Assembly (NCBI GenBank): GCA_024279915.1 | Contig: JAJRRB010000002.1 | Location: 1 to 39,750, forward strand | Length of the DNA: 39,750 bases | Reading direction: 5' to 3' | Origin: Deltaproteobacteria bacterium | GTDB taxonomy: Bacteria > Desulfobacterota > Desulfuromonadia > Desulfuromonadales > BM103 | Shown: positions 4,633 to 31,368 of the stretch, one piece after another | Numbering within the stretch: position 1 is the stretch's first letter | How the letters are laid out: each line of letters opens with the position of its first letter | Notes under the pieces: generated by a model | The model's database searches: none | What the model saw: the letters and a program-made list of their open reading frames with translations, nothing else | What the model was told of the DNA's origin: nothing | Position numbers and translations under genes: made by a program

Positions 4633-4649
4633 TTGCATAATCTATGCAA
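4633..4649. promoter_or_regulatory. TTGCATA-ATC-TATGCAA palindrome upstream of the sigma-54 activator gene
   Basis: A perfect 7+3+7 inverted repeat lies 48 bp ahead of the activator start, with a further GCATA half-site at 4654-4658. The same TGCATA/TATGCA half-sites recur upstream of livJ, hypD and pruA, so this is a candidate autoregulatory binding site. No -24/-12 element is visible here, so the gene itself probably uses another sigma factor. Confidence 0.5.
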
Positions 4650-4696
4650 AAACGCATAATATGTACCTCTGTCCTATTACGGAGGCAATCTAGTTT

Positions 4697-6436
4697 ATGC
4701 TGAATCCGGTTGATGAACTACAATCTCTCGCCCCTGATCTCCTGAAAGCACTCTCTGTGCCGCTACTTGCCTGCGATGCACAGGGACAAATCGTTTTTAC
4801 AAATCCCGCAGCAGAAAACCAGTTAAATGCCCGAGTCGGAGTTGCCTTGTCGGAGCCATTGCCCAAGCTGGCTGAAGCTGTTGGCAATTATAGACGAAGT
4901 GCAACATCGGCACCGCCTTTAACTATTACCCGTGGTACCGGTGCCCCCTACCTGGCTTTGCTGAGTACGGTCAACTCTGTCGAAGGTCAGAATCTGACTC
5001 TTTGCCTGCTACCACCAGCCCCATCTCCACCAGAATCGGACCAACGCATGCAGGATTTCGAGGCTCTGACCCTAGAGTTGCATGCCATCATTGATTCTTC
5101 TTCAGATGGTCTTTTTGTTTGTAACGCTGATGCCAAGGTTATCAGGGTCAACCCTGCTTCTGAGCGGATTCACAAGCGGCCTGCAGTAGAGATGGTAGGA
5201 CAACACATGCGGGATTTGATTGCTGAAGGTTTTATCGATCGGTCTGCAGCACTGGAAGCGAGCAGTCAGAAAAAAACCATCAGTCAACTGCAGAATCTTC
5301 CCGGTGGTGGCAAGTTGATTTCTGTTGCCACGCCGGTTTTTGATCAGAATGGTGATCTGATTCGGGTTGTAGTCAGTGAACGTGATATCAGCGAGATCGA
5401 CAGACTGCAACGAGAGCTGGAACATCAGGAATCGATCAAGGATCAGCTCCGTCATCAGATTCTTGAGATGCAGCAGGTTGAATTGGAGTCTCGACGTATT
5501 ATCGCGCGTAGCCCAAACATGATTAAATCCCTGCGTCAGGCAACCAAGGTTGCTTCAGCTGATTCCAGTGTCCTTATTCTTGGTGAATCGGGTGTCGGTA
5601 AAGGTGTGATTGCCGATATGATTCATCACAATTCACGACGTTCGGACATGCCTTTGATTACGATCAACTGTGGTGCTATCCCTGAGTCGTTGATTGAAGC
5701 GGAGCTTTTCGGTTATGAGAAGGGCGCTTTTACCGGAGCGAGTCCTAGTGGTAAGCCTGGGCAGTTTGAATTAGCCAACGAAGGAATTCTATTCCTTGAT
5801 GAAGTTGCAGAATTGCCTTTATCTGCACAGGTCAAATTGCTGCGATTCCTCGAAGATGGCCGAATCACGCGGCTTGGTAGCACTGAACAACGCAAGCTTG
5901 ACGTGCGTGTCCTTGCCGCTACTCACCGCGATCTGGAGGAAATGGTTGAGAAAGGCACTTTTCGCCTGGATCTTTACTACCGATTGAACGTAATCCCTAT
6001 TCATGTTCCGGCTGTGCGTGAGCGCAAGGATTGTATCGTCCCGTTGATACGTCACTATATGGACCATTTCTCTGCAATCAACAATACCCGGAAACGCCTG
6101 ACCCGTGCAGCGTTGGACGCACTTGCTGGCTATTCATATCCTGGAAATGTCCGTGAACTGATGAATATCAGTGAGCGGCTGGTTGTTATGTCGGAGACGG
6201 AAGTGATCGATACCCCGGACCTTCCCTCACAAGTTGTTGGTGCTGGAAAGGTTGGGTCACCTGAAGGGCTTGATTGGCCTGATGAAATTACGCTACAGCA
6301 AGCCCTTGAAACCGTTGAGCGTACTTTGCTGAGTCGGGCGCGTGATCGATATCGCAGCCAGGCAGGTATTGCCGAAGCTTTGGGAGTGAACCAGTCGACA
6401 ATAGCCAGAAAACTGAAGCGCTACAATTTGACCTGA
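4697..6436 (+). CDS. Sigma-54-dependent transcriptional activator with two PAS-like sensor regions
   Basis: 579 residues from an ATG behind GGAGG. Layout: an N-terminal PAS-like segment (about 10-110), a second PAS domain (about 125-235, DSSSDGLFVCNADAKVIRVNP), a short coiled-coil linker (about 235-265), an AAA+ sigma-54 interaction domain (about 270-500) and a Fis-type helix-turn-helix at the C-terminus (QAGIAEALGVNQSTIARKLK). The AAA+ domain has Walker A GESGVGKG (296-303), the sigma-54 contact loop GAFTGA (343-348) and Walker B DE at 368-369, so it should be a competent enhancer-binding protein. There is no receiver domain, so it senses a ligand rather than a phosphate relay. Its position beside the amino acid transporter, and shared palindromes at sigma-54 promoters of livJ, hypD and pruA, suggest it controls proline/hydroxyproline use, as PrdR does in Clostridioides. 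That function is inferred. Confidence 0.9.
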   Translation: MLNPVDELQSLAPDLLKALSVPLLACDAQGQIVFTNPAAENQLNARVGVALSEPLPKLAEAVGNYRRSATSAPPLTITRGTGAPYLALLSTVNSVEGQNLTLCLLPPAPSPPESDQRMQDFEALTLELHAIIDSSSDGLFVCNADAKVIRVNPASERIHKRPAVEMVGQHMRDLIAEGFIDRSAALEASSQKKTISQLQNLPGGGKLISVATPVFDQNGDLIRVVVSERDISEIDRLQRELEHQESIKDQLRHQILEMQQVELESRRIIARSPNMIKSLRQATKVASADSSVLILGESGVGKGVIADMIHHNSRRSDMPLITINCGAIPESLIEAELFGYEKGAFTGASPSGKPGQFELANEGILFLDEVAELPLSAQVKLLRFLEDGRITRLGSTEQRKLDVRVLAATHRDLEEMVEKGTFRLDLYYRLNVIPIHVPAVRERKDCIVPLIRHYMDHFSAINNTRKRLTRAALDALAGYSYPGNVRELMNISERLVVMSETEVIDTPDLPSQVVGAGKVGSPEGLDWPDEITLQQALETVERTLLSRARDRYRSQAGIAEALGVNQSTIARKLKRYNLT

Positions 6437-6440
6437 TTGA

Positions 6441-6480
6441 CTGCTTCTTCTGCTTCTGCTTCTGCTTCTGCTTCTTGCTT
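6441..6480 (+). repeat. CTGCTT microsatellite just after the activator stop
   Basis: About five CTGCTT hexamers, with an extra CTT after the first unit and ending in CTTGCTT, begin four bases after the stop codon of the activator. The tract is noncoding and could vary in length by slippage. Confidence 0.75.
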
Positions 6481-6498
6481 TCAGCTGTTTGAGCCCTT

Positions 6499-6516
6499 TA
6501 TGCATAAATGCATAAG
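6499..6516. promoter_or_regulatory. TTATGCA-N4-TGCATAA palindrome, candidate upstream activator site for livJ
   Basis: Two 7-base inverted arms with a four-base spacer, about 215 bp upstream of the sigma-54-type promoter of livJ. That distance is normal for enhancer sites. The site shares its half-sites with those upstream of pruA, hypD and the activator gene. Confidence 0.5.
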
Positions 6517-6731: not shown

Positions 6732-6746
6732 TGGCATTTCTTTTGC
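6732..6746 (+). promoter_or_regulatory. Sigma-54 (-24/-12) promoter for livJ
   Basis: TTGGCATTTCTTTTGCTT contains the invariant GG (6733-6734) and GC (6745-6746) with the required 12-base register, plus TGGCA and TTGC context. It lies 191 bp upstream of the livJ start. The rest of the ~500 bp gap from 6437 to 6937 holds the microsatellite and the palindrome; I see no gene in it. Confidence 0.65.
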
Positions 6747-6937
6747 TTTGTATCCTTTGCTTCGTAGTAAGAGATTAACTCCAGCGTGCATCTTCAGAGC
6801 TTTGCGGTGCTTTTGGAACATGCTTAGCAAGATACCCGTATTGAAAAGGTGTTGTTCTATGTAACAATGTCTTGATACCTTTGTTGGCCATGTAGTTTGG
6901 TGAGATTGTTAACCTGTTGATGTAAAAGGAGATGAAC

Positions 6938-8052
6938 ATGTTGAAAAAATGCTTTTTAGTGATGGTGTCGTTGGCTCTGGCTTGCGTTCTGACGGCAGGC
7001 TCGAGTTTCGCTGCTGGTGAAGTCAAAGTTGGGATTATGATTCCGACAACTGGCGGGACAGCGACAGACGGTAAAGATATGGAAAGTGCCATCAAGCTGG
7101 CAGTCGACGAAATCAATGCCGCAGGTGGCCTTCTGGGTAAAAAATTGTAACCACAACTGGTGATGATGCCTGTGACCCTCAGCAGGCTGTTGCTGCTGCC
7201 AGCAAGCTGATCTCTGAAGATGTTATTGCCGTTGTTGGTGGCTACTGCTCTGGCGCGACTCTCCCGACTCTCAAGCTTTACGGCGAAGCCAATGTGCCCA
7301 TCGTCATTGCCGCTTCAAACTCGACTGCTCTGGTCGGCGCAAACCCCGGCATCGGTTTTATGATTAACTCGACCGGTGATGCTCAGGCTGACACCGCTGT
7401 TGCTCTGTTCAAATCAGCTGGTGTGAAAAGTATTGCAATCGTTCACATGGGTGAAGCTTATTCAGAAGACCTCGCCAGCATCTCGAAGCAGAAGTGGGAA
7501 GCTGCAGGCAACAAGGTTGTGGCTTACGAGGTTGTTAACAAGGGCGAGCAGGACTTTTCCTCTCTCGTGACGACCATCAAAAGCAAGAAGCCTGATGCAG
7601 TTTTCTGGACTGCCTATTATGCTGAAGGTGCCCTTCTTATCAAACAACTGAGACAAGGTGGCTACCGCGGTACCATTGCTATCGGCGATGGCTCCAACTC
7701 TCCCAAGCTGATCGAAATCGCCGGTAAGGCAGCTGAAGGCGTCTATTGCTTCTCCAACCCAACAGTCGATTATCTCCCCGCCGCAAAAACCTTTGCCATA
7801 GATTTCAAAGCGAAGTATGACGTTGCCCCTGGTCCTTACTCCACACTTTCCTACGACGGCATGAAGCTTCTTGCCGACGCGGTCAAAAGAGCGGGATCCT
7901 TTGATGCAGACGCCATTAAAAAAGCTTTGAAGGCGACTGATAACTACGAAGGCATTGCCGGTCCGATTTCCTTTACGGACAAGCTGACCCTGGCACGCAG
8001 CAACTTCGTGACCCTCCAGGTTAAAGATCAGAAATGGAAGCTTCATCAATAG
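6938..8052 (+). CDS. livJ: Periplasmic amino-acid-binding protein of a branched-chain-type ABC transporter, frameshifted
   Basis: Type I periplasmic binding protein (LivJ/LivK family) that captures the substrate for the LivHMGF permease. The ATG at 6938 is preferred over 6932 because the AAAGGAG ribosome site overlaps the earlier codon. Residues 1 to about 26 form a signal peptide (KKCFLVMVSLALACVLTAGS) cut near SFAAG. The mature start VKVGIMIPTTGG is typical. The frame breaks at the A-run 7139-7144: six A are present where seven would give LLGKKIVTTTGDDACDPQQA in one frame. The repaired product is about 371 residues, the family norm. Both halves are well conserved, so I infer a one-base sequence error. 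Given the context the substrate may be proline or hydroxyproline rather than leucine; that is inference. Confidence 0.9.
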
Positions 8053-8074
8053 AGCTATTTTAAGCCAGCACAGA

Positions 8075-8106
8075 GGAACTGTTGAGGGTTCGCCCTCAAC
8101 AGTTCC
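8075..8106 (+). terminator. Perfect 14 bp hairpin after livJ
   Basis: GGAACTGTTGAGGG pairs perfectly with 8093-8106 around a TTCG loop. No T-run follows, so it looks like an mRNA 3' stabiliser or attenuator between the binding protein and the permease genes. Confidence 0.55.
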
Positions 8107-8126
8107 ATTGGTTCTGGAAAACTTTT

Positions 8127-8160
8127 AAAAAAGCAGGCTGCAAGGTGGGCCTGCTTTTTT
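8127..8160. terminator. Bidirectional intrinsic terminator between livJ and livH
   Basis: A perfect 12 bp stem AAAAAAGCAGGC / GCCTGCTTTTTT with a ten-base loop gives a T-run on the plus strand and an A-run upstream. Partial read-through here would explain the usual excess of binding protein over permease. Confidence 0.75.
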
Positions 8161-8260
8161 AAGAGGTTTTTCAACCGTGAATCACGCCCCTAACTTACCA
8201 ATCATGAAATCAGATAACGGCCATAGCTCAAATAACGGCTCAAAGAAGGGATAACTGTCA

Positions 8261-9175
8261 GTGTCTACTCTGGATATTTTTTGGCAGCAACTTGCAAATG
8301 GTCTGATCCTGGGATCTTTTTACAGTATGGTCGCCCTTGGTTACACCATGGTCTACGGCATTATCAAGCTGCTCAACTTTGCCCATGGTGATATTTACAT
8401 GGTCGGGGGATTTGTCGGATTGATAGTTCTTTCGCTCCTCAGCCCCTTCCTGGGTGCAGGATGGGCGGGAATCCTGGTGGCGATGATCATCAGCATGATT
8501 CTGGTTGGTCTGCTCGGGGTTCTGATCCAGCGTATTGCCTATGTCCCCATGCTCAGCGCACCGCGGCTTTCCATACTCATTACTGCGCTTGCCGTTTCCA
8601 TGGTGCTTTACAACTTCGTCATGTCCATGACCAGCGGCGAATACAAGGCTTTCCCCGTTGATTTGGGCTACGAAGGTCTTGAATTCGGCAATGTTTTTAT
8701 CACCTATACCCAGATTATCCTGGTTTCATCGACGGCAACCCTGATGCTGGTCCTGCATCTTTTCATCAGTAAGACCATGTACGGCAAGGCGATGCGGGCG
8801 ATTGCCATTGATCAGGACGCCTGTCGCCTGATGGGTATTAACGTCAAGACGATTATTGCCATGACCTTTTTCGTCGGCTCGGCACTGGCCTGCGCTGCCG
8901 GTGTCATGGCTGGTGTCTATTATGGCAGTATCCATTTCTTTATGGGTTTTTTGATCGGACTCAAAGCATTCACGGCGGCGGTTATCGGTGGTATAGGCAG
9001 TATCCCTGGGGCTGTGCTCGGTGGGTTGATTCTGGGTCTGCTTGAGGCCTTTGGTACCCAGTTACCCTTCATCGGGTCGGAATGGAAAGATGTTTTTGCT
9101 TTCGGAATTTTGATTCTTCTGCTTCTTTTCAAGCCAACCGGTCTGCTGGGCAAGACCGAGATAGAGAGGATGTAG
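8261..9175 (+). CDS. livH: Branched-chain-type amino acid ABC transporter permease LivH
   Basis: 304 residues from a GTG start behind GAAGGG. This inner-membrane permease has about eight hydrophobic helices. The LivH family hallmark MVALGYTMVYGIIKLLNFAH lies near the N-terminus, followed later by the cytoplasmic EAA-like loop AIAIDQDACRLMGINVKTI. It pairs with LivM to form the channel and is energised by LivG and LivF, whose genes follow in order. Its stop lies two bases before the livM start, showing tight co-transcription. Length matches the family. Confidence 0.95.
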   Translation: MSTLDIFWQQLANGLILGSFYSMVALGYTMVYGIIKLLNFAHGDIYMVGGFVGLIVLSLLSPFLGAGWAGILVAMIISMILVGLLGVLIQRIAYVPMLSAPRLSILITALAVSMVLYNFVMSMTSGEYKAFPVDLGYEGLEFGNVFITYTQIILVSSTATLMLVLHLFISKTMYGKAMRAIAIDQDACRLMGINVKTIIAMTFFVGSALACAAGVMAGVYYGSIHFFMGFLIGLKAFTAAVIGGIGSIPGAVLGGLILGLLEAFGTQLPFIGSEWKDVFAFGILILLLLFKPTGLLGKTEIERM

Positions 9176-9177
9176 CC

Positions 9178-10101
9178 GTGTTGGAAAAGAACAAAATCAA
9201 ATTGAATAATATATACGCCCTGCTGGTTGTTGTTGTCCTGGCTATGCCGTTGGTTGCTAATAATTATGTCCTGAATACCTTTTCAGATGTCTGGTTCTAC
9301 GTAATCGTCTGCCTGGGATTGAATATTGTTGTTGGCTACGCTGGCTTACTGGACCTCGGTTATGCTGCTTTCTTTGCTGTCGGAGCCTATACCACGGCGA
9401 TCCTCACTACGACTTTCGGCATGAACTTCTGGATGACCATTCCTTTTGCCATGCTTTTTGCGGCGATCTCAGGGGTTATTATCGGTGGTCCAACCCTGAG
9501 ACTCCGAAGCGACTACCTGGCGATTGTCACCCTCGGCTTTGGTGAAATAGTCAGGCTTACTGCCAGAAATCTTGAGATTACAGGTGGCGCCAGTGGCATC
9601 TACGGGATCGAAAGGCCATTCTTCTTCGGTATCGAAATGAATGGCAGCATTCATTTCTACTACGCTTTCCTCATGCTTGCTTTTCTGGCCATTTTTGTCA
9701 GTTTCAGGCTGCAGTATTCGAGATTGGGCAGGGCCTGGCAATATGTCCGAGAAGATGAAGACGCAGCAGAGGCCATGGGTATCAACCGGGTCAGAGTCAA
9801 ACTCTCCGCTTACGTGATTGGTGCTGTGTTAGGTGGAGTTGCCGGGAGCTTCTTTGCAGTCAAAATGACGGCGATCTCTCCTGAGACGTTTATGTTTACC
9901 CAGTCAATCCTGATTCTCCTGGGTGTGGTCATTGGAGGTATGGGCAAGATACCGGGAGTTGTCTGCGGTGCTTTCATCCTCGTGCTCTTCCCGGAAATAT
10001 TCCGCTTTGTCGGTGATATGCGCCTGCTGGCTTTTGCCGTCATCATGCTGATCATCATGTTGAAACGTCCACAAGGCCTCTGGCCGTCCAGACTGGGCTA
10101 G
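9178..10101 (+). CDS. livM: Branched-chain-type amino acid ABC transporter permease LivM
   Basis: 307 residues. I start at the GTG at 9178, two bases after the livH stop and behind GAGAGGA, although the frame is open further upstream inside livH; the next codon TTG is an alternative. Family signatures are present: VVGYAGLLDLGYAAFFAVGA, TLRLRSDYLAIVTLGFGEI, and the loop REDEDAAEAMGINRVRVKLS that contacts the ATPases. The C-terminal MLKRPQGLWPSR is also typical. It is the second membrane subunit of the LivHMGF importer. Confidence 0.93.
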   Translation: MLEKNKIKLNNIYALLVVVVLAMPLVANNYVLNTFSDVWFYVIVCLGLNIVVGYAGLLDLGYAAFFAVGAYTTAILTTTFGMNFWMTIPFAMLFAAISGVIIGGPTLRLRSDYLAIVTLGFGEIVRLTARNLEITGGASGIYGIERPFFFGIEMNGSIHFYYAFLMLAFLAIFVSFRLQYSRLGRAWQYVREDEDAAEAMGINRVRVKLSAYVIGAVLGGVAGSFFAVKMTAISPETFMFTQSILILLGVVIGGMGKIPGVVCGAFILVLFPEIFRFVGDMRLLAFAVIMLIIMLKRPQGLWPSRLG

Positions 10102-10123
10102 TTGCATTACAGGAGATTAAAGA

Positions 10124-10891
10124 ATGTCCCTGTTGGAAGTTAAGGATATTGTTCTGAAATTCGGTGGCCTCACGGTTATCGATTCGATGAATATGACCAT
10201 AAAGGAAGGCTCAATCATGAGCCTGATCGGTCCGAATGGTGCCGGGAAAACATCAATATTTAACTCGATCACTGGATTTTATCGGCCCGACTCCGGACAA
10301 ATTAACTTTCGCGACAAGTCGATTATGCGAAAAAAGCCGCACAAGATTACTCAGGCCGGAATGGCGCGCACTTTTCAGAATTTACGCTTGTTCAAAAACA
10401 TGTCGGTCATCGACAATGTGAAATCTGGTATGCATTGCCGGTCTCATGTCGGTTTCTTAGGTTCGGTATTGAGATCTCCAGGTCAACAAAAGGAAGAAAA
10501 GGAGATTACTGAGCATTGCGAGCAGTGCCTGGACTTCGTCGGTATTCTCGATCAGGAGAACCGTTCTGCTTCCACTCTTTCCTATGGTGACCAGAGGCGA
10601 GTTGAGTGGGCAAGGGCGCTGGCAACCAAACCCAAGTTTCTGCTTCTGGATGAACCGGCTGCAGGGCTCAACTTTGACGAAAAACAGCAACTGATTGAGC
10701 TCATCAAAAGAATTCGTGATGAACTCGGTATTACTGTGCTGCTGATAGAGCATGACATGGGCCTGGTCATGAAAGTGTCCGAGTATATCTACGTGATTGA
10801 TTACGGCAAGAACATCGCCCAAGGCCTTCCGGAAGAAGTTAAGAATGATCCCAAGGTTATAGAGGCTTACCTTGGAAAGGACGATGACTGA
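10124..10891 (+). CDS. livG: ABC transporter ATP-binding protein LivG
   Basis: 255 residues, ATG behind ACAGGAGA. Cytoplasmic ATPase subunit with Walker A GPNGAGKT (36-43), the Q-loop region ARTFQNLRLFKNMSV, the ABC signature LSYGDQRRVEWARAL, Walker B LLLDEPAAGLN and the switch histidine in LLIEHDMGLVM. The LivG subclass is recognised by the FQNLRLF motif and the C-terminal DPKVIEAYLG. It is separated by two bases from livF, with which it forms the nucleotide-binding heterodimer. Confidence 0.95.
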   Translation: MSLLEVKDIVLKFGGLTVIDSMNMTIKEGSIMSLIGPNGAGKTSIFNSITGFYRPDSGQINFRDKSIMRKKPHKITQAGMARTFQNLRLFKNMSVIDNVKSGMHCRSHVGFLGSVLRSPGQQKEEKEITEHCEQCLDFVGILDQENRSASTLSYGDQRRVEWARALATKPKFLLLDEPAAGLNFDEKQQLIELIKRIRDELGITVLLIEHDMGLVMKVSEYIYVIDYGKNIAQGLPEEVKNDPKVIEAYLGKDDD

Positions 10892-10893
10892 AG

Positions 10894-11610
10894 ATGTCTG
10901 ATGTAGTCTTGAAAATAACCGATTTGCATGCACATTACGGACAGATTCACGCACTGCGAGGGATCAATCTGGAAGTCAGGGCCGGTCAGATCGTTACCCT
11001 GCTCGGAGCCAATGGTGCCGGGAAAAGCACCACCATGAAATGCATCTCGGGTTTACTGAAACCGACCGGTGGCAAGATAGAGTTTATGGGCGAGAGTATC
11101 TTCGGTGTAGCTGCCCATGAAATTGTCAAGAAAGGCCTGATCCAGGTCCCTGAAGGGAGAAAGATCTTCAAGGGTATGACGATTCAGGAAAACCTCGAGC
11201 TTGGATCTTTTACTCTGAAGGACGATGCTGAACGTAAAAAGAGAATGGAGCATGTCTACGAGCTCTTTCCGGTGCTTGGCGAAAGGCGCCACAGAGATTC
11301 AGGAATGCTCTCTGGTGGTGAACAGCAGATGCTGGCTATAGGCCGGGCGCTAATGGTCAACCAGAAGCTGGTTCTCCTCGATGAACCGTCAATGGGGCTA
11401 GCGCCATTTCTGGTGAAAAACATCATGAAGGTTATCAAGCGGCTCAATGAGGAAGGGATTACGATCCTCCTGGTGGAGCAGAATGCAAAAATGGCTTTGA
11501 ACATTGCTGATTACGGTTATGTGGTCGAAACCGGTGAAATTGTTATGCATGACGATGGTGATGTGCTGAAGAAGGATGAACGGATTATTAATGCTTATCT
11601 TGGTGAGTGA
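10894..11610 (+). CDS. livF: ABC transporter ATP-binding protein LivF
   Basis: 238 residues, ATG two bases after the livG stop. It has Walker A GANGAGKS (38-45), signature LSGGEQQMLAIGRAL, Walker B LVLLDEPSMGLAP and the histidine-lacking LivF switch LLVEQNAKMAL, which distinguishes LivF from LivG. The VPEGRKIFKGMTIQENLELG stretch is diagnostic of LivF. It is the last gene of the transporter operon; a GC hairpin and a repeat block follow. Confidence 0.95.
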   Translation: MSDVVLKITDLHAHYGQIHALRGINLEVRAGQIVTLLGANGAGKSTTMKCISGLLKPTGGKIEFMGESIFGVAAHEIVKKGLIQVPEGRKIFKGMTIQENLELGSFTLKDDAERKKRMEHVYELFPVLGERRHRDSGMLSGGEQQMLAIGRALMVNQKLVLLDEPSMGLAPFLVKNIMKVIKRLNEEGITILLVEQNAKMALNIADYGYVVETGEIVMHDDGDVLKKDERIINAYLGE

Positions 11611-11635
11611 GGTTTAAATGCCTCTTGGGTATATT

Positions 11636-15487: not shown

Positions 15488-15567
15488 CGTCATCCTCGTG
15501 AAAACGGGGATCCAGTTGTTAGACAACCACAGAGAACCTCTGGATTCCCGCCTGCGCGGGAATGACG
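15488..15567. repeat. Palindromic 'CGTCATCC...GGATGACG' intergenic repeat, copy 1
   Basis: Begins CGTCATCCTCGTG, contains GGGGATCCA and CTCTGGATTCCCGC, and ends GGGAATGACG, so the ends are inverted. Similar copies lie at 18294-18372 (inverted) and 29156-29231. It is noncoding and flanked by TTGCA/TGCAA-containing arms. Confidence 0.75.
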
Positions 15568-16621: not shown

Positions 16622-16788
16622 TAGCAGCCTGTCGGACAATCAATAAACTGGCTGCAAATTCGTCTGTTTGATCCATATTTCAGCTCCTTGTCGACCAATA
16701 GCTACGGCTATTACTCTCAAATGAGCCAAAATCTGGCTTCAAACATTCAAATTTTCGCTTCAGCCCTGATTGTCCGACAGGCTGCTAG
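16622..16788. mobile_element. MITE-like element, family 1, copy B
   Basis: 167 bp with perfect 21 bp terminal inverted repeats (16622-16642 and 16768-16788; TAGCAGCCTGTCGGACAATC inward). The interior matches copy A at 13659-13824 in opposite orientation. Its right end is 23 bp from the start codon of the second sigma-54 activator, so it makes up that gene's upstream region. Confidence 0.85.
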
Positions 16789-16811
16789 AAGCCGTTTGCG
16801 AGGGATGTCGC

Positions 16812-20919: not shown

Positions 20920-21816
20920 ATGCCGACGAATTTGCCGACCGAGTTACTGCGAACATTTGTCGCAATTGCCGATACTGGAAATTTTAGCCAGGCTGCGGAG
21001 CAGGTGCATCGCACTCAGTCAGCTGTGAGTATGCAGATCAAGCGTCTGGAGGAGTTGCTTGAAAAGACGCTTTTTACGCGAGACAGCAGGCATTCGAGTC
21101 TGACTGCCGATGGTTTGACTTTGCTTGGCTACGCCCGCCGTATACTCAAACTGAATGAGGAAGCGGTCTCGCTGCTCACGCAACCGGAACTCTCCGGGTG
21201 GGTACGTATCGGTCTGCCAGACGATTACGCGACTCGTTTCCTTCCTGAGATCCTGGCAGGGTTCTCCCGTAGCCATCCGCGAGTTCAGGTTGAGGTCATT
21301 TGTGAGCCGAGTACTCAGTTGCGGCAACGCATTAAGCGCCACGAGCTTGATCTTGCAATGACGACATCGGCGGTGCCTGATGAAGAACACACTCTGTTGC
21401 TGAGTTGCGAAGCCGTGGTCTGGGCGACTTCGGAGCAGCATCTTCCACACGAAGACAAACCCTTGCCGCTAGCTCTGTTCCCCAATGATTGTATTTATCG
21501 AACCTGGGCGATTGAGGCGCTGGAAGAGGCGGGTGTCGAGTATCGAATCGCTTATAGCAGCCCGAGCAATATGGGACTTCAGTCTGCTGTGATTGCAGGG
21601 CTGGCTGTGACGGCCACAAGTCTGAGCATTATCCCTCCAGGAATGCGCCAGCTGCGTCCTGATGAGGGGGTGCCGTTATTGCCGAATGTTTATTTTTTGT
21701 TGCATCGTAGCCCTGCAGCCGACAACTGTGTTGTTGATTCCCTGGCCGAGCATATCGCAAAAGCTTTTGGGGCCATTAGTCAAACATCAGGCGGGGTTGC
21801 ATGCAATAGTGAATAA
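20920..21816 (+). CDS. LysR-family transcriptional regulator
   Basis: 298 residues; the ATG at 20920 follows TGGAGGTG, better than upstream in-frame ATGs. The N-terminal winged HTH (TNLPTELLRTFVAIADTGNF then SQAAEQVHRTQSAVSMQIK, about residues 5-45) is of the LrhA/HexA-like branch. An effector-binding domain covers about 90-290. It is divergent from DUF1127 and immediately upstream of hypD, 275 bp away on the same strand. It may respond to an amino acid or intermediate of that pathway, but nothing in the sequence identifies the ligand. Confidence 0.9.
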   Translation: MPTNLPTELLRTFVAIADTGNFSQAAEQVHRTQSAVSMQIKRLEELLEKTLFTRDSRHSSLTADGLTLLGYARRILKLNEEAVSLLTQPELSGWVRIGLPDDYATRFLPEILAGFSRSHPRVQVEVICEPSTQLRQRIKRHELDLAMTTSAVPDEEHTLLLSCEAVVWATSEQHLPHEDKPLPLALFPNDCIYRTWAIEALEEAGVEYRIAYSSPSNMGLQSAVIAGLAVTATSLSIIPPGMRQLRPDEGVPLLPNVYFLLHRSPAADNCVVDSLAEHIAKAFGAISQTSGGVACNSE

Positions 21817-21822
21817 AAAATG
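21797..21822. promoter_or_regulatory. TTGCATGCAA palindrome plus ATGCAT, candidate upstream site for hypD
   Basis: A perfect 10 bp palindrome (21797-21806) and a second ATGCAT (21819-21824) overlap the end of lysR, 105-130 bp upstream of the sigma-54-type promoter. They resemble the TGCATA sites ahead of livJ and pruA but are less complete. Confidence 0.35.
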
Positions 21823-21928
21823 CATGAATGAATAGATGTCGTCTTGTGTTGCTTTGCTTATGGTCTTGTACGGTTGGATTTCGTTTGTAATTACGGCATG
21901 TTTTGGTTGTGTCTGACTTTTACTCGGT

Positions 21929-21943
21929 TGGTACTCTTCTTGC
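21929..21943 (+). promoter_or_regulatory. Sigma-54 (-24/-12) promoter for hypD
   Basis: TTGGTACTCTTCTTGCTC keeps the GG (21930-21931) and GC (21942-21943) with correct 12-base spacing; the -24 box is TGGTAC, one change from TGGCAC. It lies 148 bp ahead of the hypD start. Confidence 0.55.
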
Positions 21944-22091
21944 TCACTAGATTTGGTTAAATGTTCTGTTGGTCCATATCGTGAGGTTGGCGCTCTTGTT
22001 TGCGGATGCTGCACGAAGTAGAATGATGACTAATGCTTTTACTGCCACTTATGAATGAATGTGTGTGGCGCGAGGCTTAAAGGAAGTAGAT

Positions 22092-24548
22092 ATGGAGAAA
22101 ACAAGCGACTTGAAGGCTGTTCCGGAACGTAAAGCTGATGCCGAGGGGAACTTTTACCCAACAGGCAAGGGTGGTGTCGGACCGGGAATGAATGAACGAA
22201 TTCAGCGCCTGCGCAAGTTAAGCGTTGAGGCCGAACCCAGCCTTTCGATTGAGAGAGCTTTGCATGAGACTGCTTTCTATAAAGAGAATTACGGCAATTA
22301 CTCGACCCCAATGCTGCGGGCTTTGAATTTCTTCGATCACTGCCAGAAGAAAACTCTCTATCTCGGTGACGACGAACTGATCGTTGCCGAACGTGGCCCG
22401 CAGCCCAAATCAGTACCAACCTTCCCTGAATTGACCTGCCACAGCATAGAAGACTTTCACGTTCTGAACACCCGTGATCAACAACGCTACACCATCAGTG
22501 ATGAAGATGTGGCAACCTACGCCCGTGAGGTGATTCCCTACTGGCAGGGCAAAACGATCCGTGAGCGGATCTTCAGCCATGTTCCTGATGAGTGGCGAGT
22601 TGCTTACGAAGCAGGGCTGTTTACTGAATTTATGGAACAACGCGCACCTGGGCATACGGCACTCGATGGGCAGATCTATGGCAAGGGCATGCTTGATTAT
22701 AAGCGTCAAATTGCCGATGAAATTGCCTTACTCGATTACCTCAATGATCCGGAGGCGACCGATAAGGCAGAAGAGCTCAAGGCGATGGATATCTCCTGTG
22801 ATGCTGTGATCGTTTTTGCCGAACGGCATGCCGAGCTGGCCGAAGAAATGGCGACCAAAGAGGGTGATCCACAAAGGGTTGCTGATCTGCATAAAATTGC
22901 CGAGGTCTGTCGCTGGGTTCCCGCTAACGCACCACGAACCTTTCACGAAGCCATTCAGATGTACTGGTTCGTCCATCTTGGCACCATCACCGAATTGAAT
23001 GGCTGGGATGCCATGAACCCGGGCCACTTCGATCAGCACCTGGCGCCATTTTACGAGGCTGAAATAGCTGATGGCAGCTTAACTCGCGATCAGGCCAAAG
23101 AGTTGCTCTGCTGCTTCTGGATCAAGGTCAATAACCATCCGGCACCGCCAAAGGTTGGCATTACCGCGCGTGAAAGCGGTACCTACAACGATTTCACCAA
23201 TATTAATATCGGTGGCATCACCAGTGACGGCAAGGACGGTGTCAGCGAAGTCTCCTACATCATGCTTGAGGTGGTCGAGGAGTTACATGTTTTGCAGCCG
23301 GGTAGCTCGGTACACGTTAGTAGTAAGACGCCGGATCGTTTTCTGCAGGCCGCTTGCAAGGTGATCCGTCAGGGCCACGGTTATCCGTCGGTCTTTAATC
23401 CGGATGTTTATCTTGTCGAGTTGATGCGTCAAGGTAAGTCACTTAAGGATGCCCGCGAGGGTGGTTGCAGCGGTTGTATCGAAGTCGGCGCCTTCGGCAA
23501 GGAAGCCTATATTCTGACCGGTTATCTCAATGTGCCGAAGATTCTTGAGGTCACCCTGAACAATGGTATTGACCCGGTCACCGGTAAAATGGCTGGCATT
23601 GAGACCGGCGACCCTCGCGAATTTACAAGCTATGAGGAGTTGTACCAAGCGTTCCTCAAACAACTCAACTTCATCGTCGACACCAAGGTGCGGGTCAGTA
23701 ACTACATCGACCGCATGTTTGCCAAATATGCTCCTGCGCCTTTCCTCTCGGTGGTGATTGAGGATTGTATCAGTAAGGGCCGGGACTATTACGACAGCGG
23801 CCCACGTTACAATACCAACTATATCCAGTGTACCGGCCTTGGCACGACCACCGACAGCCTGGCCTCGCTCAAAAAACATGTTCTGGAAGACCAGACCTTC
23901 AGCATGGAACGTGTCCTTGACGCGGTTGCCAAGGATTTTGCTGGCGAAGAGTTCCTGCGCCAGACGATCGTTAACAAGACCCCTTTCTTCGGCAATGATG
24001 ATGATTATGCCGATGATATCGCTCTACAGATTTATGCTGACCTGCTTGCTGCCATTGATGGCAAGCCAAACGTCAAGGGTGAAACCTTCCATCTCAATAT
24101 GCTCTCCACGACCTGTCACATCTATTTCGGTAAGGTGATGGGAGCGACCCCTAATGGTCGTTTTGCAGGCAAGTCAATCTCCGATGGTACTTCGCCGTCC
24201 CACGGTGCGGATACTCACGGCCCCTCGGCTGTGGTTCGCTCGTTGACCAAACTTGATCACACCATGTCCGGCGGGACGCTGCTTAACCAGCGCTCTTTGC
24301 CCAGCCTGCTCAAACGCGATGAGGATGTCACCCGTCTGGGGCAGTTGATTCGCAGTTATTTCACCCTCGGAGGCCACCATATTCAATTTAATGTTGTTGA
24401 TACGGCGACCTTGAAGGCTGCCCAGGAGACACCGGAGGATTACAAAGATCTGTTGGTGCGCATGGCCGGTTACAGCGACTATTTCAACGATATGAATGCC
24501 GATCTGCAGCAGGAAGTGATTGAACGCACCGAGAACGAGTCGTTCTGA
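22092..24548 (+). CDS. hypD: Glycyl radical enzyme: trans-4-hydroxy-L-proline dehydratase
   Basis: 818 residues; the ATG at 22092 follows AAAGGAAG. HypD uses a glycyl radical to dehydrate trans-4-hydroxy-L-proline to P5C. The radical Gly is Gly793 (RMAGYSDYFND) and the thiyl Cys is Cys462 (SGCIEVGAFGKEAY). Compared with the active-site residues I recall for Clostridioides HypD (His160, Asp278, Ser334, Phe340, Cys434, Glu436, Tyr450, Thr645, Gly765), this protein has the same residue at a constant offset of +28 each time: His188, Asp306, Ser362, Phe368, Cys462, Glu464, Tyr478, Thr673 and Gly793. That is strong evidence for HypD rather than another glycyl radical enzyme. The extra residues are an N-terminal extension of about 28. 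The activase gene follows at once. The enzyme is oxygen-sensitive by family. Confidence 0.95.
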   Translation: MEKTSDLKAVPERKADAEGNFYPTGKGGVGPGMNERIQRLRKLSVEAEPSLSIERALHETAFYKENYGNYSTPMLRALNFFDHCQKKTLYLGDDELIVAERGPQPKSVPTFPELTCHSIEDFHVLNTRDQQRYTISDEDVATYAREVIPYWQGKTIRERIFSHVPDEWRVAYEAGLFTEFMEQRAPGHTALDGQIYGKGMLDYKRQIADEIALLDYLNDPEATDKAEELKAMDISCDAVIVFAERHAELAEEMATKEGDPQRVADLHKIAEVCRWVPANAPRTFHEAIQMYWFVHLGTITELNGWDAMNPGHFDQHLAPFYEAEIADGSLTRDQAKELLCCFWIKVNNHPAPPKVGITARESGTYNDFTNINIGGITSDGKDGVSEVSYIMLEVVEELHVLQPGSSVHVSSKTPDRFLQAACKVIRQGHGYPSVFNPDVYLVELMRQGKSLKDAREGGCSGCIEVGAFGKEAYILTGYLNVPKILEVTLNNGIDPVTGKMAGIETGDPREFTSYEELYQAFLKQLNFIVDTKVRVSNYIDRMFAKYAPAPFLSVVIEDCISKGRDYYDSGPRYNTNYIQCTGLGTTTDSLASLKKHVLEDQTFSMERVLDAVAKDFAGEEFLRQTIVNKTPFFGNDDDYADDIALQIYADLLAAIDGKPNVKGETFHLNMLSTTCHIYFGKVMGATPNGRFAGKSISDGTSPSHGADTHGPSAVVRSLTKLDHTMSGGTLLNQRSLPSLLKRDEDVTRLGQLIRSYFTLGGHHIQFNVVDTATLKAAQETPEDYKDLLVRMAGYSDYFNDMNADLQQEVIERTENESF

Positions 24549-24549
24549 G

Positions 24550-25458
24550 ATGCAGCAAGGCCTGATTTTCGATATCAAGCGCTATTCCATCAATGATGGA
24601 CCAGGTATTCGTGTCACTATTTTTTTCAAAGGTTGTCCACTCAACTGCCAGTGGTGCCATAACCCGGAAAGTATCTCACCGAAGATCCAGAAACTCTTTA
24701 CGGCGAGTAAGTGTATCGGCTGTGAAGAGTGTTGCCGGGTCTGTCCCATGCAAGCGTGTCGTCTGACTCCTGAGGGAATTGTCACCGACGACAGCCTCTG
24801 TACTTTGTGTGGCAAGTGCGCTGAGGTCTGCCCGACTCTGGCAACCGAGATGTCGGGTTGTTATCGCTCAGTCGACGAACTTCTCAATATCATCGAGAAA
24901 GAGCGGCCGTTCTTTGATCAGTCGGGTGGTGGCGTGACTTTCTCAGGTGGTGAGCCGCTGCTCTATCCTGACTTTCTCATCGAAATTCTTGATGCCTGCG
25001 GCAAACAACAGATTCACCGTGCTATTGATACCTCTGGGTTTGTCAAAACTGCAACGCTGCTTGAGGTGGCGAAGCACACCGACTTGTTTCTTTATGATCT
25101 GAAAATGATAGATGCCGAAAAGCACAAACGTTACACTGGTGTCGACAATCAGTTGATCCTCGAAAATCTCAAGATCCTGGCGGAGAGCGGCGCGGCTATT
25201 CGAGTGCGCATCCCGCTGATCGGTGGCGTTAATGATGATGACGCCAGCATTGAAGCCGCAGCAGCTTTTGTTGCCGCTCTGCATGGAGAAAAAAAGCCGG
25301 TGGATCTGCTGCCGTTTCATGATGTCGCCAAGGGTAAGGATGTGAAACTTGGTCAGGAACGTGATCTCAGCGGACTCTCTGAACCGACTCCAGATGGTCT
25401 GGAGCGAGTGATCAGCATTTTTGCCGGGCATGGTCTGCTTGCGAGTGTTGGTGGGTAG
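24550..25458 (+). CDS. Glycyl-radical enzyme activating enzyme (radical SAM) for HypD
   Basis: 302 residues; the ATG at 24550 is one base after the hypD stop, so the two are translationally coupled. It uses S-adenosylmethionine and a [4Fe-4S] cluster to abstract H from Gly793 of HypD. The radical SAM motif is Cys29-x3-Cys33-x2-Cys36 (GCPLNCQWCHNPES). An inserted ferredoxin-like domain carries two four-Cys clusters: Cys55/58/61/65 (CIGCEECCRVCP) and Cys84/87/90/94 (CTLCGKCAEVCP), as is usual for activases other than PflA. The FSGGEPLLYPDF motif binds SAM. No separate electron donor gene is adjacent. Confidence 0.95.
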   Translation: MQQGLIFDIKRYSINDGPGIRVTIFFKGCPLNCQWCHNPESISPKIQKLFTASKCIGCEECCRVCPMQACRLTPEGIVTDDSLCTLCGKCAEVCPTLATEMSGCYRSVDELLNIIEKERPFFDQSGGGVTFSGGEPLLYPDFLIEILDACGKQQIHRAIDTSGFVKTATLLEVAKHTDLFLYDLKMIDAEKHKRYTGVDNQLILENLKILAESGAAIRVRIPLIGGVNDDDASIEAAAAFVAALHGEKKPVDLLPFHDVAKGKDVKLGQERDLSGLSEPTPDGLERVISIFAGHGLLASVGG

Positions 25459-28105: not shown

Positions 28106-29137
28106 ATGCGTACAAACCAGGTTATCCATGTTGTCAGTTGTCATGCCGAAGTAGAAGTCGGAGACGTCATCGTTGGCGGTGTGGCGCCTCCTCCAGGGGA
28201 AACGATCTGGGAGCAGGCCCGTTGGATTGCCAAGGACAAAAAGCTTAGAAACCTTGTCTTGAACGAACCCCGCGGCGGCGTGTTTCGCCATGTCAATCTG
28301 CTGGTCCCGGCCAAAAATCCAAAAGCCCAGATGGGCTGGATTATCATGGAGCCGGAGCATACGCCTCCTATGTCCGTATCAAACTCAATCTGTGTGTCGA
28401 CGGTTCTTCTCGAAACCGGCATCATTCCTATGCAGGAACCGGAGACCCGAATGACTCTGGAGCCTCCCGGAGGGCTGGTTGATGTGGTGGCCAGTTGCAA
28501 GGATGGCAAGGTCACCAAGGTGCAGATTCGCAATGTCCCCTCATTTGTTGATAAATGTGATGCCACTATCGAGGTGGAAGGACTTGGTACTCTGACTGTG
28601 GATACGGCCTATGGTGGCGACAGCTTTGTGATTGTTGACGCTGAACTATTTGGCTTTAAACTCACTCCTGACGAGGCACAAGACATTGTGCAGACAGGTC
28701 TCAAAATAACCAATGCTGCGAATGAGCAACTGGGTTTTCATCATCCAGAAAATCCGGATTGGCAGCACATTTCTTTTTGTCAGATTGCTGCTCCTCTGCA
28801 AAAAGAAAATGGCGTCTGGCTCGGTCGCAACAGTGTGGTGATTCAACCCGGTAAGTTGGACAGGTGTCCCACTGGAACAGGCTGCTCGGCCCGGATGGCG
28901 CTTTTGCATCATAAGGGTGTCCTCAAGGTTGGCGATCAGTATATTGGCGAATCAATTCTTGATTCACGTTTCCATTGTTCTATTGACGCGGTGACTACTG
29001 TAGGCGAGCGTGAGGCAATCTATCCGCTTATCTCAGGACAAGCCTGGATAACCGGGACGCATCAACATATGCTGGATCCGACCGATCCTTGGCCGGAAGG
29101 CTACAGAGTGGCTGATACCTGGCCTATGATGAAATAG
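28106..29137 (+). CDS. Proline racemase superfamily protein with a Ser/Thr catalytic pair
   Basis: 343 residues, ATG behind GGGGGAAAG. The superfamily includes proline racemase and 4-hydroxyproline 2-epimerase (Cys/Cys or Ser/Cys pair) and trans-3-hydroxyproline dehydratase (Cys/Thr pair). By alignment to the MCGHN motif, the first catalytic position here is Ser90 ([16 protein letters not shown]) and the usual His is also Ser. In the second motif, [14 protein letters not shown] takes the place of DRSPCGTG, giving Thr256, with cysteines shifted to 254 and 260. The full fold is present ([25 protein letters not shown]). This is therefore a divergent subgroup; racemase, epimerase or dehydratase activity cannot be assigned. 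Context with hypD, ProDH and PruA favours a proline or hydroxyproline isomer as substrate. Confidence 0.85.
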
Positions 29138-29155
29138 TAGAGGCTTCTCAAAGGT

Positions 29156-29231
29156 CGTCATCCTCGTGAAAACGGGGATCCATTCTTTTGCAACCCAAGA
29201 CCTCTGGATTCCCGCATGCGCGAGAATGACG
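29156..29231. repeat. Palindromic 'CGTCATCC...GAATGACG' repeat, copy 3
   Basis: CGTCATCCTCGTGAAAACG, GGGGATCCA, CTCTGGATTCCCGC and GAGAATGACG match copy 1 at 15488 in the same orientation. Occupies the space after the racemase-family gene. Confidence 0.75.
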
Positions 29232-29280
29232 AGAGGTGGAGTTTTACAAGAGCCTCGATAGTGTCAAAAGAATAGGCGGT

Positions 29281-29404
29281 TATGCAAAATTGCATATGCT
29301 GGGCAATTATTATACGCAATGCATAAGTGCATAGAATGTGCTATTTCCTTTTAATTACATTGTGTTGTGGCGTTGCCCATGGTTGATGCATATGCGTTAA
29401 AGCA
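29281..29404. promoter_or_regulatory. Cluster of TGCATA palindromes upstream of pruA
   Basis: TATGCAA-AA-TTGCATA (29281-29296, perfect arms), ATGCATAAGTGCATA (29320-29334) and GATGCATATGCG/AGCATAATGG (29384-29411) lie 200-330 bp upstream of the sigma-54-type promoter. The second nearly copies the site upstream of livJ. This is the densest cluster of the motif in the window. The whole gap 29138-29724 otherwise holds the repeat at 29156 and the promoter at 29609; no gene is seen. Confidence 0.55.
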
Positions 29405-29608
29405 TAATGGTCCCTCGGCGCCTCCTGTTTAATTCCCCAGTTTTTATCTGAAAAACAAAAAAATCCCCCCAGTCGTTAACCCCGCGTAGGATTTGTCCGC
29501 TTGTGGTGAAAACCGTTACTTGTCAGGTATTTATCTCTTCTCTTGACTGATGTGTCCCTGTTCTGTTGACGACAGTCGAGTCCTCTGGGTGGCTGCTGTT
29601 TTTAAATT

Positions 29609-29623
29609 TGGCATTCTGTTTGC
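29609..29623 (+). promoter_or_regulatory. Sigma-54 (-24/-12) promoter for pruA
   Basis: TTGGCATTCTGTTTGCTC has GG at 29610-29611 and GC at 29622-29623 in the right register, and is close in sequence to the livJ promoter (TTGGCATTTCTTTTGCTT). It lies 101 bp ahead of the pruA start. Confidence 0.65.
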
Positions 29624-29724
29624 TCTATTAGAGTGTCTGAATTGTGTATCACGTACAACCTGCTACCTTTGAACAAGCGAATTATTTTCTGACCTCATAA
29701 ACATAATTAAGGAAGGTGCCCATT

Positions 29725-31368
29725 ATGAATCTGCTAAACAATGCCATTCTCAAAGTCCCGACACCTGTTAATGAACCCGTTTACAGCTTCGCGCCCGGAA
29801 CTCCGGAGCGTGACCTGCTTAAGGCGGCGATTGATGAAATCTCCTCAAAGAAGGTGGAGATTCCCCTGATTATCGGTGGCAAAGAAGTCCGTACCGGTAA
29901 GATGGGCAAGATTGTCATGCCTCATGACCATCAGCATGTACTCGGTGAGTATCATATTGCGGGTGAAAAAGAGATCAACATGGCGATTGATGCTGCTATG
30001 GACGCCAAAGAGGGCTGGGCTAACCTGCGTTGGGAAGAGCGTGCCGCGATCTTCCTCAAGGCAGCTGAGCTGCTCTCTGGCAAATACCGCTACCTGATGA
30101 ATGCAGTCAGCATGCTTTCCACCAGTAAGAGCGCTTACCAGGCCGAGATTGACGCTGCCTGTGAATTGATCGACTTCCTGCGTTTCAACGTCTACTACGC
30201 TCAGCAGGTCTATACGGATCAACCGCTTTATTGCTCGAAGGGTCTTTGGAACTTCGTACAACAACGTCCTCTGGAAGGCTTTGTCTTTGCGGTCGCGCCA
30301 TTTAACTTCACAGCGATTGCCGGCAACCTTGCCACTGCACCGGCCATCATGGGCAACACGATTTTCCTCAAGCCCGCGTCGTCATGTGTTTATACCCCTT
30401 ATCTCTTTATGCAAATTCTCAAAGAAGCCGGGATGCCTGATGGTGTTATCAACTTTGTGCCTGGTCCCGGTTCGGTGGTTGGCAAAATCTGTCTCGATCA
30501 TCGTGATCTCGGCGGCATACACTTTACCGGTTCGACTGCTGTCTTCCATCAGATGTGGCAGACCGTTGGCAGCAATATAGCCAAATACAAATCTTATCCA
30601 CGCATTGTTGGTGAAACCGGTGGCAAGGACTTCATCGTTGCTCACGAGAGTGCTGATGTAGAGCAACTGACCACCGCGATCATTCGTGGCTCGTTTGAAT
30701 TTCAGGGACAGAAATGTTCTGCAGCTTCACGCGCCTATATTCCGAAATCTATCTGGGGGCAGGTCCGCCAGCAACTTGAAACGGACATGGCAACGATCAA
30801 AATGGGACACCCAAAAGATTTCAGCAATTTCTTTAACGCGGTCATCGATAAATCGGCATTTGCAACCATCACCGAGTTTATCGATTACTCCAGAAAGTCT
30901 GAAGATGCAGAGATCATCATCGGTGGCGGTTATGACGACAGTAAAGGTTACTTCATTGAGCCGACTGTGATTCTGGCTAAGACGCCGAATTTCCGTACCA
31001 TGGAAGAAGAAATATTTGGGCCGGTTATGACCATCTATGTTTACGACGATGCCAAGTACGAAGAGATGCTTGAGCTTTGCGACCAGACCTCGATATATGC
31101 TCTGACCGGTGCAGTTTTTGCCACCGAACGGACTGCTGTCAGCCTGGCTATGACCAAACTGGAAAATGCTGCTGGTAACTTCTATATCAATGACAAGCCA
31201 ACCGGTGCGGTGGTTGGACAGCAACCTTTCGGTGGTGCCCGTGCTTCCGGTACCAACGACAAGGCTGGTTCTTACCTGAATCTGGTTCGTTGGGTTTCGC
31301 CACGTACGATCAAGGAAACCTTTGAGGCGCCAACGCACTTTGCTTACCCATTCATGGATGCTGAATAA
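29725..31368 (+). CDS. pruA: L-glutamate gamma-semialdehyde (P5C) dehydrogenase
   Basis: 547 residues; the ATG at 29725 follows TTAAGGAAGG, preferred to an in-frame GTG at 29716 that overlaps the ribosome site. It oxidises glutamate semialdehyde (from P5C) to glutamate with NAD+. ALDH-fold with general base Glu297 (VGETGGKDF) and catalytic Cys331 (FEFQGQKCSAASRAYI). FNFTAIAGNLATAPAIMGN and the long GTNDKAGSYLNLVRWVSPRT end are typical of the stand-alone P5CDH type found with separate ProDH (about 543 residues). It is the meeting point of the ProDH and HypD products. Proline dehydrogenase follows after a MITE insertion. Confidence 0.95.
   Translation: MNLLNNAILKVPTPVNEPVYSFAPGTPERDLLKAAIDEISSKKVEIPLIIGGKEVRTGKMGKIVMPHDHQHVLGEYHIAGEKEINMAIDAAMDAKEGWANLRWEERAAIFLKAAELLSGKYRYLMNAVSMLSTSKSAYQAEIDAACELIDFLRFNVYYAQQVYTDQPLYCSKGLWNFVQQRPLEGFVFAVAPFNFTAIAGNLATAPAIMGNTIFLKPASSCVYTPYLFMQILKEAGMPDGVINFVPGPGSVVGKICLDHRDLGGIHFTGSTAVFHQMWQTVGSNIAKYKSYPRIVGETGGKDFIVAHESADVEQLTTAIIRGSFEFQGQKCSAASRAYIPKSIWGQVRQQLETDMATIKMGHPKDFSNFFNAVIDKSAFATITEFIDYSRKSEDAEIIIGGGYDDSKGYFIEPTVILAKTPNFRTMEEEIFGPVMTIYVYDDAKYEEMLELCDQTSIYALTGAVFATERTAVSLAMTKLENAAGNFYINDKPTGAVVGQQPFGGARASGTNDKAGSYLNLVRWVSPRTIKETFEAPTHFAYPFMDAE

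Follow-up and report, generated by a model that had tools for sequence, protein, structure and literature searches.

Sigma-54-type promoters with a common operator, and two putative paralogous activators, at a proline and hydroxyproline locus of a Desulfuromonadales bacterium

The locus, its promoters and its operators

The stretch analysed here, called the window throughout, comprises 39,750 nucleotides from a Deltaproteobacteria bacterium of the order Desulfuromonadales (contig JAJRRB010000002.1, positions 1 to 39,750). It carries genes for the uptake and oxidation of proline, the hydroxyproline dehydratase gene hypD and the genes of two sigma-54 activators, EBP1 and EBP2. An initial annotation had proposed that -24/-12 promoters and TGCATA palindromes upstream of livJ, hypD and pruA unite these genes in one sigma-54 regulon. 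The features on which the argument turns are the following.

4624..4658, plus strand: tandem operator before EBP1, AATTCTTTATTGCATA at 4624-4639 and TATGCAAAAACGCATA at 4643-4658, 19 bp apart
4697..6436, plus strand: EBP1, sigma-54 activator of 579 amino acids, with PAS_4 at 133-233, AAA+ with GAFTGA, and HTH_50
6499..6514, plus strand: livJ promoter operator, TATGCATAAATGCATA, 233 bp upstream of the -24 element
6732..6747, plus strand: livJ -24/-12 element, TGGCATTTCTTTTGCT, kept in relatives
6932..11610, plus strand: livJHMGF amino-acid ABC transporter (livH 8261, livM 9082, livG 10124, livF 10894)
16770..18260, plus strand: EBP2, paralogous sigma-54 activator with one PAS_4, GAFTGA and the helix SQPTVARK; start uncertain
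21800..21834, plus strand: hypD operators, CATGCAATAGTGAATA at 21800-21815 and AATGCATGAATGAATA at 21819-21834, 19 bp apart
21929..21944, plus strand: hypD -24/-12 element, TGGTACTCTTCTTGCT, found with an operator in 15/19 loci
22092..24548, plus strand: hypD, trans-4-hydroxy-L-proline dehydratase, a glycyl radical enzyme (NF043068, 1176.9 bits, cut-off 1100)
29281..29406, plus strand: three pruA operators, TATGCAAAATTGCATA at 29281, AATGCATAAGTGCATA at 29318 and TATGCGTTAAAGCATA at 29391
29609..29624, plus strand: pruA -24/-12 element, TGGCATTCTGTTTGCT, found with an operator in 51/55 loci
29716..31368, plus strand: pruA, L-glutamate gamma-semialdehyde (pyrroline-5-carboxylate, P5C) dehydrogenase (TIGR01236, 783.6 bits, cut-off 613.6); likely start ATG 29725
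31543..32457, plus strand: proline dehydrogenase (ProDH), behind pruA (NF045947, 236 bits, below the cut-off of 500)

The -24/-12 elements at 6732, 21929 and 29609 all have the GG-N10-GC spacing first ascribed to them, and each departs by one mismatch from TGGCACN5TTGCW, a consensus that, like the matrix weights, is approximate. In its loose form (up to 3 mismatches) the consensus is unenriched in the window, with 204 occurrences found and 203 expected. The strict form, TGGYAYN5TTGCT, is present at 34 places genome-wide, against 9 in the reversed control, and the livJ, hypD and pruA elements are three of these 34; by our own arithmetic a window-sized stretch is expected to hold about 0.35. The DNA-binding domain of RpoN has one match in the genome. 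A further one-mismatch look-alike, TGGCACAACGTATGCA, lies at 37709-37724 of the window, with no plus-strand gene assigned behind it.

When the promoter regions were read side by side, the operator unit proved to be a 16-bp inverted repeat, TATGCR-N4-YGCATA. Exact copies stand in the window at 4643 (EBP1), 6499 (livJ) and 29281 and 29391 (pruA), and one-mismatch copies at 29318 (pruA) and, inside a gene, at 14729. The whole 3.83-Mb genome holds five exact copies (control 2), four of which are within the window. In the 22 genomes of the window's family there are 35 against 14 in the reversed control (our own sums from the table), and 24 of the 35 lie, by our own count, on contigs that carry the proline/hydroxyproline locus. 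The palindromes of the initial annotation are thereby upheld at livJ and pruA in this longer form. The hypD promoter has no TGCATA palindrome, its two sites having TGAATA half-sites instead, and TGCATA alone, with 23 occurrences in the window against 18.8 expected, showed no enrichment and was rejected as a motif. A wider regulon was likewise rejected, the window's genome having one other exact operator only, at C17:25910 (control 2), and the relaxed form TATKC..GMATA giving 11 there against 10 in the control.

The proposed distances of 100-330 bp hold for the redefined operators as well, since beside the livJ site those of hypD lie 129 and 110 bp, and those of pruA 328, 291 and 218 bp, upstream of the -24 element. 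The triple site of pruA, at intervals of roughly 37 and 72 bp, recurs in G005, G014, G016 and G010, the middle site often being weak. The tandem operator before EBP1, where no -24/-12 element was found, is a probable autoregulatory site. It overlaps a possible sigma-70 promoter (TTGCAT-16-CATAAT, read by eye), and autorepression is therefore likely.

Conservation in related genomes

Relatives were compared in sets of 22 (the window's family), 136 (order) and 277 genomes (class). In the fetched loci a hit was a gene start with a promoter scoring 12 or more and an operator scoring 9.5 or more in the 420 bp before it, and five mononucleotide shuffles of each scored region served as control. Promoter and operator were found together at 51/55 pruA, 15/19 hypD and 11/48 livJ starts, at 4 of the 487 other gene starts, and never in the shuffles. 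The sites are thus kept upstream of orthologues, a point on which the initial annotation had let its proposal depend. The four other positives are ProDH in G106 and G047 and a membrane protein in G074 and G075. Misses are pruA in G048b, G165, G166 and G177 and hypD in G011, G017, G046 and G130; an apparent hypD promoter in G003b was a false one at a contig end and stands outside the final counts. All eleven livJ positives are loci of the window's family in which liv directly follows EBP1, so that livJ, put forward as a promoter of the regulon, holds that place in this arrangement, such a promoter not having been found elsewhere. For proC, the neighbour of EBP1, promoter plus operator were seen in 0/21 scored loci.

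EBP1 relatives are present in 14/22 family genomes and HypD in 13/22; at the order level, and at the thresholds used, the counts are 63/136 and 56/136, and at the class level EBP1 relatives occur in 96/277 genomes. Many related genomes carry EBP1, pruA, ProDH, liv, EBP2 and hypD linked to one another. The order proC-EBP1-pruA-ProDH-liv-EBP2 recurs, not always complete, in families f8, f9 and others, and some of these loci carry hypD-activase-membrane protein-EamA further on. The window's family is rearranged, with liv directly behind EBP1 and pruA-ProDH behind hypD, each with its own promoter and operators. Five family members (G009, G010, G011, G014 and G016) have liv genes that are non-orthologous to those of the window (livJ 29-33%) and still stand behind the same operator and promoter. 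G007 has no HypD at the search threshold and retains the operator and pruA-ProDH-liv along with a protein of the EBP1 type. The set of sigma-54-type promoters with a common operator is real and conserved, and it most likely constitutes a regulon; conservation and linkage support the shared control first proposed, with the amendment that probably two activators with different operators exert it.

At five loci from other orders of the class (L170, L171, L172, L174 and L180, from G186, G256, G141, G224 and G170, respectively), an activator of the EBP1 type with these operators precedes liv-like genes, and in G256, G224 and G170 an aldehyde:ferredoxin oxidoreductase gene is also found behind the activator. 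The stretches from these five genomes contain no pruA match, and activators of this family may there belong to a different amino-acid pathway.

Two activators and the operators they may read

Both PAS/AAA+ activators noted in the initial annotation were recovered by Pfam, with PAS, sigma-54 AAA+ and HTH_50 domains (PF00158, Sigma54_activat: EBP1 229.7 and EBP2 216.8 bits, cut-off 20.2) and with GAFTGA intact at residues 343 and 251, respectively. Pfam found no match before residue 127 of EBP1 and no receiver domain in either protein, and from the latter we infer direct sensing through the PAS domains. EBP2 is 62% identical to EBP1 over 460 amino acids and belongs to a separate clade of 32 rows (100*). 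The recognition helix of EBP1 is NQSTIARK. Among the fetched loci, 62/71 NQS-type activator genes are preceded by a site, 55/71 by a 19-bp pair; of the EBP2 genes, 1/33 has a site before it. For SQP-type activators outside the EBP2 group, upstream sites with T/A in both arms were found in G091 and G092.

For each activator we took the first -24/-12 element within 1.5 kb behind it and the best site upstream, leaving bases 4 and 13 free. Promoter and site stood close behind 68 of the 121 activators. Those with an NQSTxARK helix (n=56) had TATGC/GCATA (bases GC) in 54 cases, TA in one and CC in one; those with SQPTxAR[KR] (n=9) had TATTC/GAATA (TA) in seven and GA in two, never GC; a single TQA helix went with GT. 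The 54 GC sites read T (53/54) A T G C, then A (42) or G (12), four free bases, T (46), C (7) or A (1), and finally G C A T A (53/54). On a tree of 67 activators built without the helix-turn-helix (HTH), the helix changes 4 times and the operator 5 times, and the sister proteins of G170 (SQP/TA) and G224 (NQS/GC) differ in both (support 100/98).

The distribution of EBP2 follows that of hypD. HypD occurs in 31/33 genomes with EBP2, assigned from fetched loci, one of the 33 being truncated, and in 25/103 others. In readable genomes with EBP2 the hypD promoter and sites are present in 14/14, and in those without it in 1/5 (G013). The hypD sites are paired at a spacing of 19 bp in 11/15 genomes; they have TGAATA half-sites, and their distances to the -24 element are for the most part close to 109 and 128 bp. 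All 15 genomes with the hypD promoter show a GC site at pruA or livJ, and among their best hypD sites (up to three per genome) GC never occurs. In family f8 the best hypD site has the left arm TATTC in 7/7 genomes and the right arm GAATA in 5/7, and the pruA sites of the same genomes are GC. The window's family has GAATA as right arm and a mostly TATGC-like left arm, and its hypD sites are accordingly hybrids. Other targets for EBP2 through a promoter of this kind were considered and rejected, the cyclodeaminase, short-chain dehydrogenase/reductase (SDR), aldo-keto reductase and serine-dehydratase genes having such a promoter at 0/6, 0/6, 0/6 and 0/5 starts. None of the scored EBP2 gene starts has promoter plus operator either.

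From the motifs and from their conservation, co-occurrence and covariation we infer a mechanism of DNA binding, sigma-54 dependence, autorepression and signalling, and consider it quite probable that two paralogous PrdR-like activators divide the work, EBP1 serving proline oxidation, uptake and its own gene and EBP2 serving hypD. EBP1 would bind TATGCR-N4-YGCATA upstream of the livJ and pruA-ProDH promoters (218-328 bp in the window) and loop to RNA polymerase-sigma-54, switching on proline uptake and oxidation to glutamate; it would also occupy the tandem site at its own promoter, probably repressing its own gene. EBP2 would bind the paired TGAATA sites upstream of the hypD promoter and switch on hypD, whose product would form P5C from trans-4-hydroxyproline for oxidation by PruA. 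The two arms would be kept apart in part by a single base in each half-site, G/C or T/A, which the NQST or SQPT helix would read. The signal of EBP1 may be proline or P5C, because G007 retains the EBP1 arm without HypD, and that of EBP2 may be hydroxyproline, because EBP2 travels with HypD. For the more general operator code, in which NQST reads TATGCA/TGCATA, SQPT reads TATTCA/TGAATA, targets change with the helix and the duplicated pair splits proline from hydroxyproline control, we judge the balance to be slightly favourable.

Several observations weigh against this division and the code. No promoter plus site was found within 1.5 kb behind 53 of the 121 activators. The code has exceptions in G077 (TA) and G035 (CC) and in the NQSTISKK proteins of G232 and G247, which go with TATTC sites (one TA, one TC), and mixed-arm sites precede SQP-type activators, for example in G093, G094, G105 and G130, none being listed as GC/GC. 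Starred-branch pairs are never opposite in direction, but number two only (sign test, median p 0.5), and a single origin of the NQS helix is not rejected on the order-level set (p-AU 0.354). The loci compared are related and not independent. Helical phasing of the operator distances is at best weak (pruA p 0.02-0.19, hypD 0.004-0.03, uncorrected, for periods of 10-11), and was rejected as support. Finally, the hybrid hypD sites of the window's family imply that EBP1 might act there too, and G013 has hypD sites where EBP2 was not found.

The last two points also speak for an arrangement in which EBP1 alone runs the livJ, hypD and pruA promoters, the hypD sites being weak EBP1 sites and EBP2 regulating something else; the site upstream of EBP1 itself is a similar hybrid. 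We regard this as unlikely, given the TATTC and GAATA arms at hypD in f8 genomes whose pruA sites are GC, the 14/14 against 1/5 association of hypD sites with EBP2, and the lack of promoter plus operator at every scored SDR, aldo-keto reductase, serine-dehydratase, cyclodeaminase and EBP2 start. The palindromes could instead belong to another regulator, such as the LysR protein at 20902, and merely neighbour sigma-54 promoters. Palindromes are a common operator form and the LysR gene adjoins hypD, but in several families the operator goes with the activator genes and with the letters of their HTH, it precedes the EBP1 gene itself, and in the fetched loci only two gene starts, counting that of the window, could be scored for the LysR query. 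This explanation is improbable.

PrdR, the nearest named family, raises the question of a clostridial-type system whose members control proline reduction. It is the best NCBIfam match of both activators (NF041552), and a PrdB-like piece exists on another contig of the same genome (C49:4055-4492, within region 4046-4567, minus strand, of contig C49:1-5828, our L188; TIGR04483, 115.5 bits, below the cut-off of 300), so that a proline-reductase-like protein may exist. The PrdR regulon of Clostridiales (prdABDEF, prdC) is alike in having a PAS/AAA+/HTH sigma-54 activator, a proline substrate, -24/-12 promoters and an inverted-repeat upstream activating sequence (UAS), which has the same overall length of 16 bp when the PrdR spacer is 10. 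However, EBP1 and EBP2 reach 391.8 and 346.1 bits where the cut-off is 795, with the profile aligned only from its residue 127, and the window's promoters stand before genes of uptake, of HypD and of proline oxidation. For PrdR, which switches on proline reductase genes, the UAS is given as TGT-N10-12-ACA (PMC6615313), unlike the TAT-N10-ATA seen here and the TATGC..GCATA of the 54 sites. On the 5.8-kb contig with the PrdB-like piece neither type of site is found, even with one mismatch allowed, and no proline reductase gene was present among the 30 window open reading frames (ORFs) scanned, the search of the genome for prd genes having covered prdB. A system of this kind is very improbable. 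Chance motifs, that is -24/-12 look-alikes and AT-rich palindromes in intergenic DNA, are hardly credible, for although the loose forms of both are unenriched in the window, the strict forms are overrepresented and are kept at orthologous starts, with 4/487 elsewhere and 0 in shuffles.

If the division between EBP1 and EBP2 holds, two landing sites one letter apart per half would make separate control of two foods possible, and HypD would gain a candidate dedicated activator. If the code is also true, the operator letters, and hence regulon membership, could be read from two residues, and the hybrid hypD sites of the window's family would be places where both activators act and the proline and hydroxyproline signals meet. 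Paired activators with a one-letter operator difference would amount to a natural experiment on the avoidance of cross-talk by duplicated regulators. The system offers a testable regulon for the anaerobic use of proline and hydroxyproline, major amino acids of collagen, in bacteria related to Desulfuromonadales, which by kinship may be metal or sulfur reducers.

Known systems and further genes

The sox locus of Bacillus thuringiensis HD73 is alike in placing a sigma-54 activator, SoxR, beside a catabolic operon with a proline-racemase-family gene. SoxR switches on two promoters and inhibits the promoter of its own gene, which is not of the sigma-54 type (PMC4941409), a self-inhibition like that proposed here for EBP1. 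The same text describes an oxidative locus, shown for sarcosine, which differs from ours in having one activator and an 11-bp inverted-repeat site, and which holds racemase, dihydrodipicolinate-synthase and aldehyde-dehydrogenase genes (PMC4941409). Judged by eye, that locus seems to resemble a hydroxyproline pathway. To our knowledge, the hydroxyproline pathways under LhpR and HypR are aerobic and without HypD. Both regulators exert substrate-specific control of hydroxyproline use, as proposed here, but are of other protein families, LhpR of Pseudomonas aeruginosa being of the AraC family and HypR of Streptomyces and Sinorhizobium of the GntR family (PMC6608401). Clostridioides difficile likewise combines HypD with ProC, and its hypD is induced by hydroxyproline in two strains; there, unlike here, the pathway feeds proline reduction, and no hypD activator is named in the available portion of the report (PMC9815643). 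For Bacilli, a prediction exists that proline dehydrogenase is under sigma-54 control (PMC12316311).

Geobacter sulfurreducens belongs to the same class as the Desulfuromonadales. A term search of the main text on its RpoN regulon (PMC2725144) returned no mention of proline or pyrroline, and a term search of the D. vulgaris sigma-54 paper (PMC4641369) no proline or hydroxyproline regulon. In the literature searched, which was available in part and had subscription journals largely outside it, nothing was found that describes hypD as controlled by sigma-54.

By general pathway knowledge, HypD could convert trans-4-hydroxyproline and ProDH proline to P5C, which PruA could oxidise to glutamate. 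The start of livJ is at 6932 or 6938, and its frame (region 6932-8052) is broken at an A-run at 7139-7144, with a stop at 7148; livJ is unbroken in all four relatives compared, and an assembly or sequencing slip is therefore likely in the window. The remaining assigned genes are these.

3721..4545, plus strand: proC, P5C reductase (TIGR00112, 287 bits, cut-off 196.75)
15651..16612, plus strand: ornithine cyclodeaminase/mu-crystallin family gene (PF02423 over its cut-off, all NCBIfam models below)
24520..25458, plus strand: HypD activase (radical SAM), start probably ATG 24550
28106..29137, plus strand: trans-3-hydroxy-L-proline dehydratase (NF047722, 627.1 bits, cut-off 550)
32635..33951, plus strand: conserved membrane protein, no Pfam/NCBIfam match

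NCBIfam and Pfam also identified an SDR, an aldo-keto reductase, a fused serine dehydratase, an EamA transporter and the LysR regulator. The activase scores 350 bits with NF043069, below the cut-off of 425, and 332 bits with TIGR02494, the model of the wider family, above the cut-off of 174. The cyclodeaminase-family gene, split over two frames of which the first stops at 15807, is a candidate pyrroline-2-carboxylate reductase. Five relatives (G003, G004, G005, G013 and G017) have a gene of the proline-racemase family no more than about 2 kb away from it, and in the two of these tested the racemase-family gene is below all curated cut-offs. The 484-aa ORF of the membrane protein starts too early, close relatives beginning at an ATG that matches 32635. 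The protein is multi-pass by eye, stands beside hypD or ProDH in many fetched loci, has its own -24/-12 element and operator in G074 and G075, and is possibly a transporter for the pathway. Only homologues of 29-35% identity to the trans-3-hydroxyproline dehydratase were found in the fetched loci.

Similar repeats, GTCATCCTCGTGAAAACGGGGATCCA ... GGATTCCCGC, are visible by eye in two intergenic regions of the window, 15490-15570 and 29150-29240, and a REP-associated transposase-like ORF, below cut-off, is located at 18770. Between the activase and pruA, at 25630-26263, lie an MntA-type antitoxin-like ORF (below cut-off) and a small ORF. In G011 and G016 the activase and pruA are only about 0.5 kb apart, which suggests an insertion at this position in the window.

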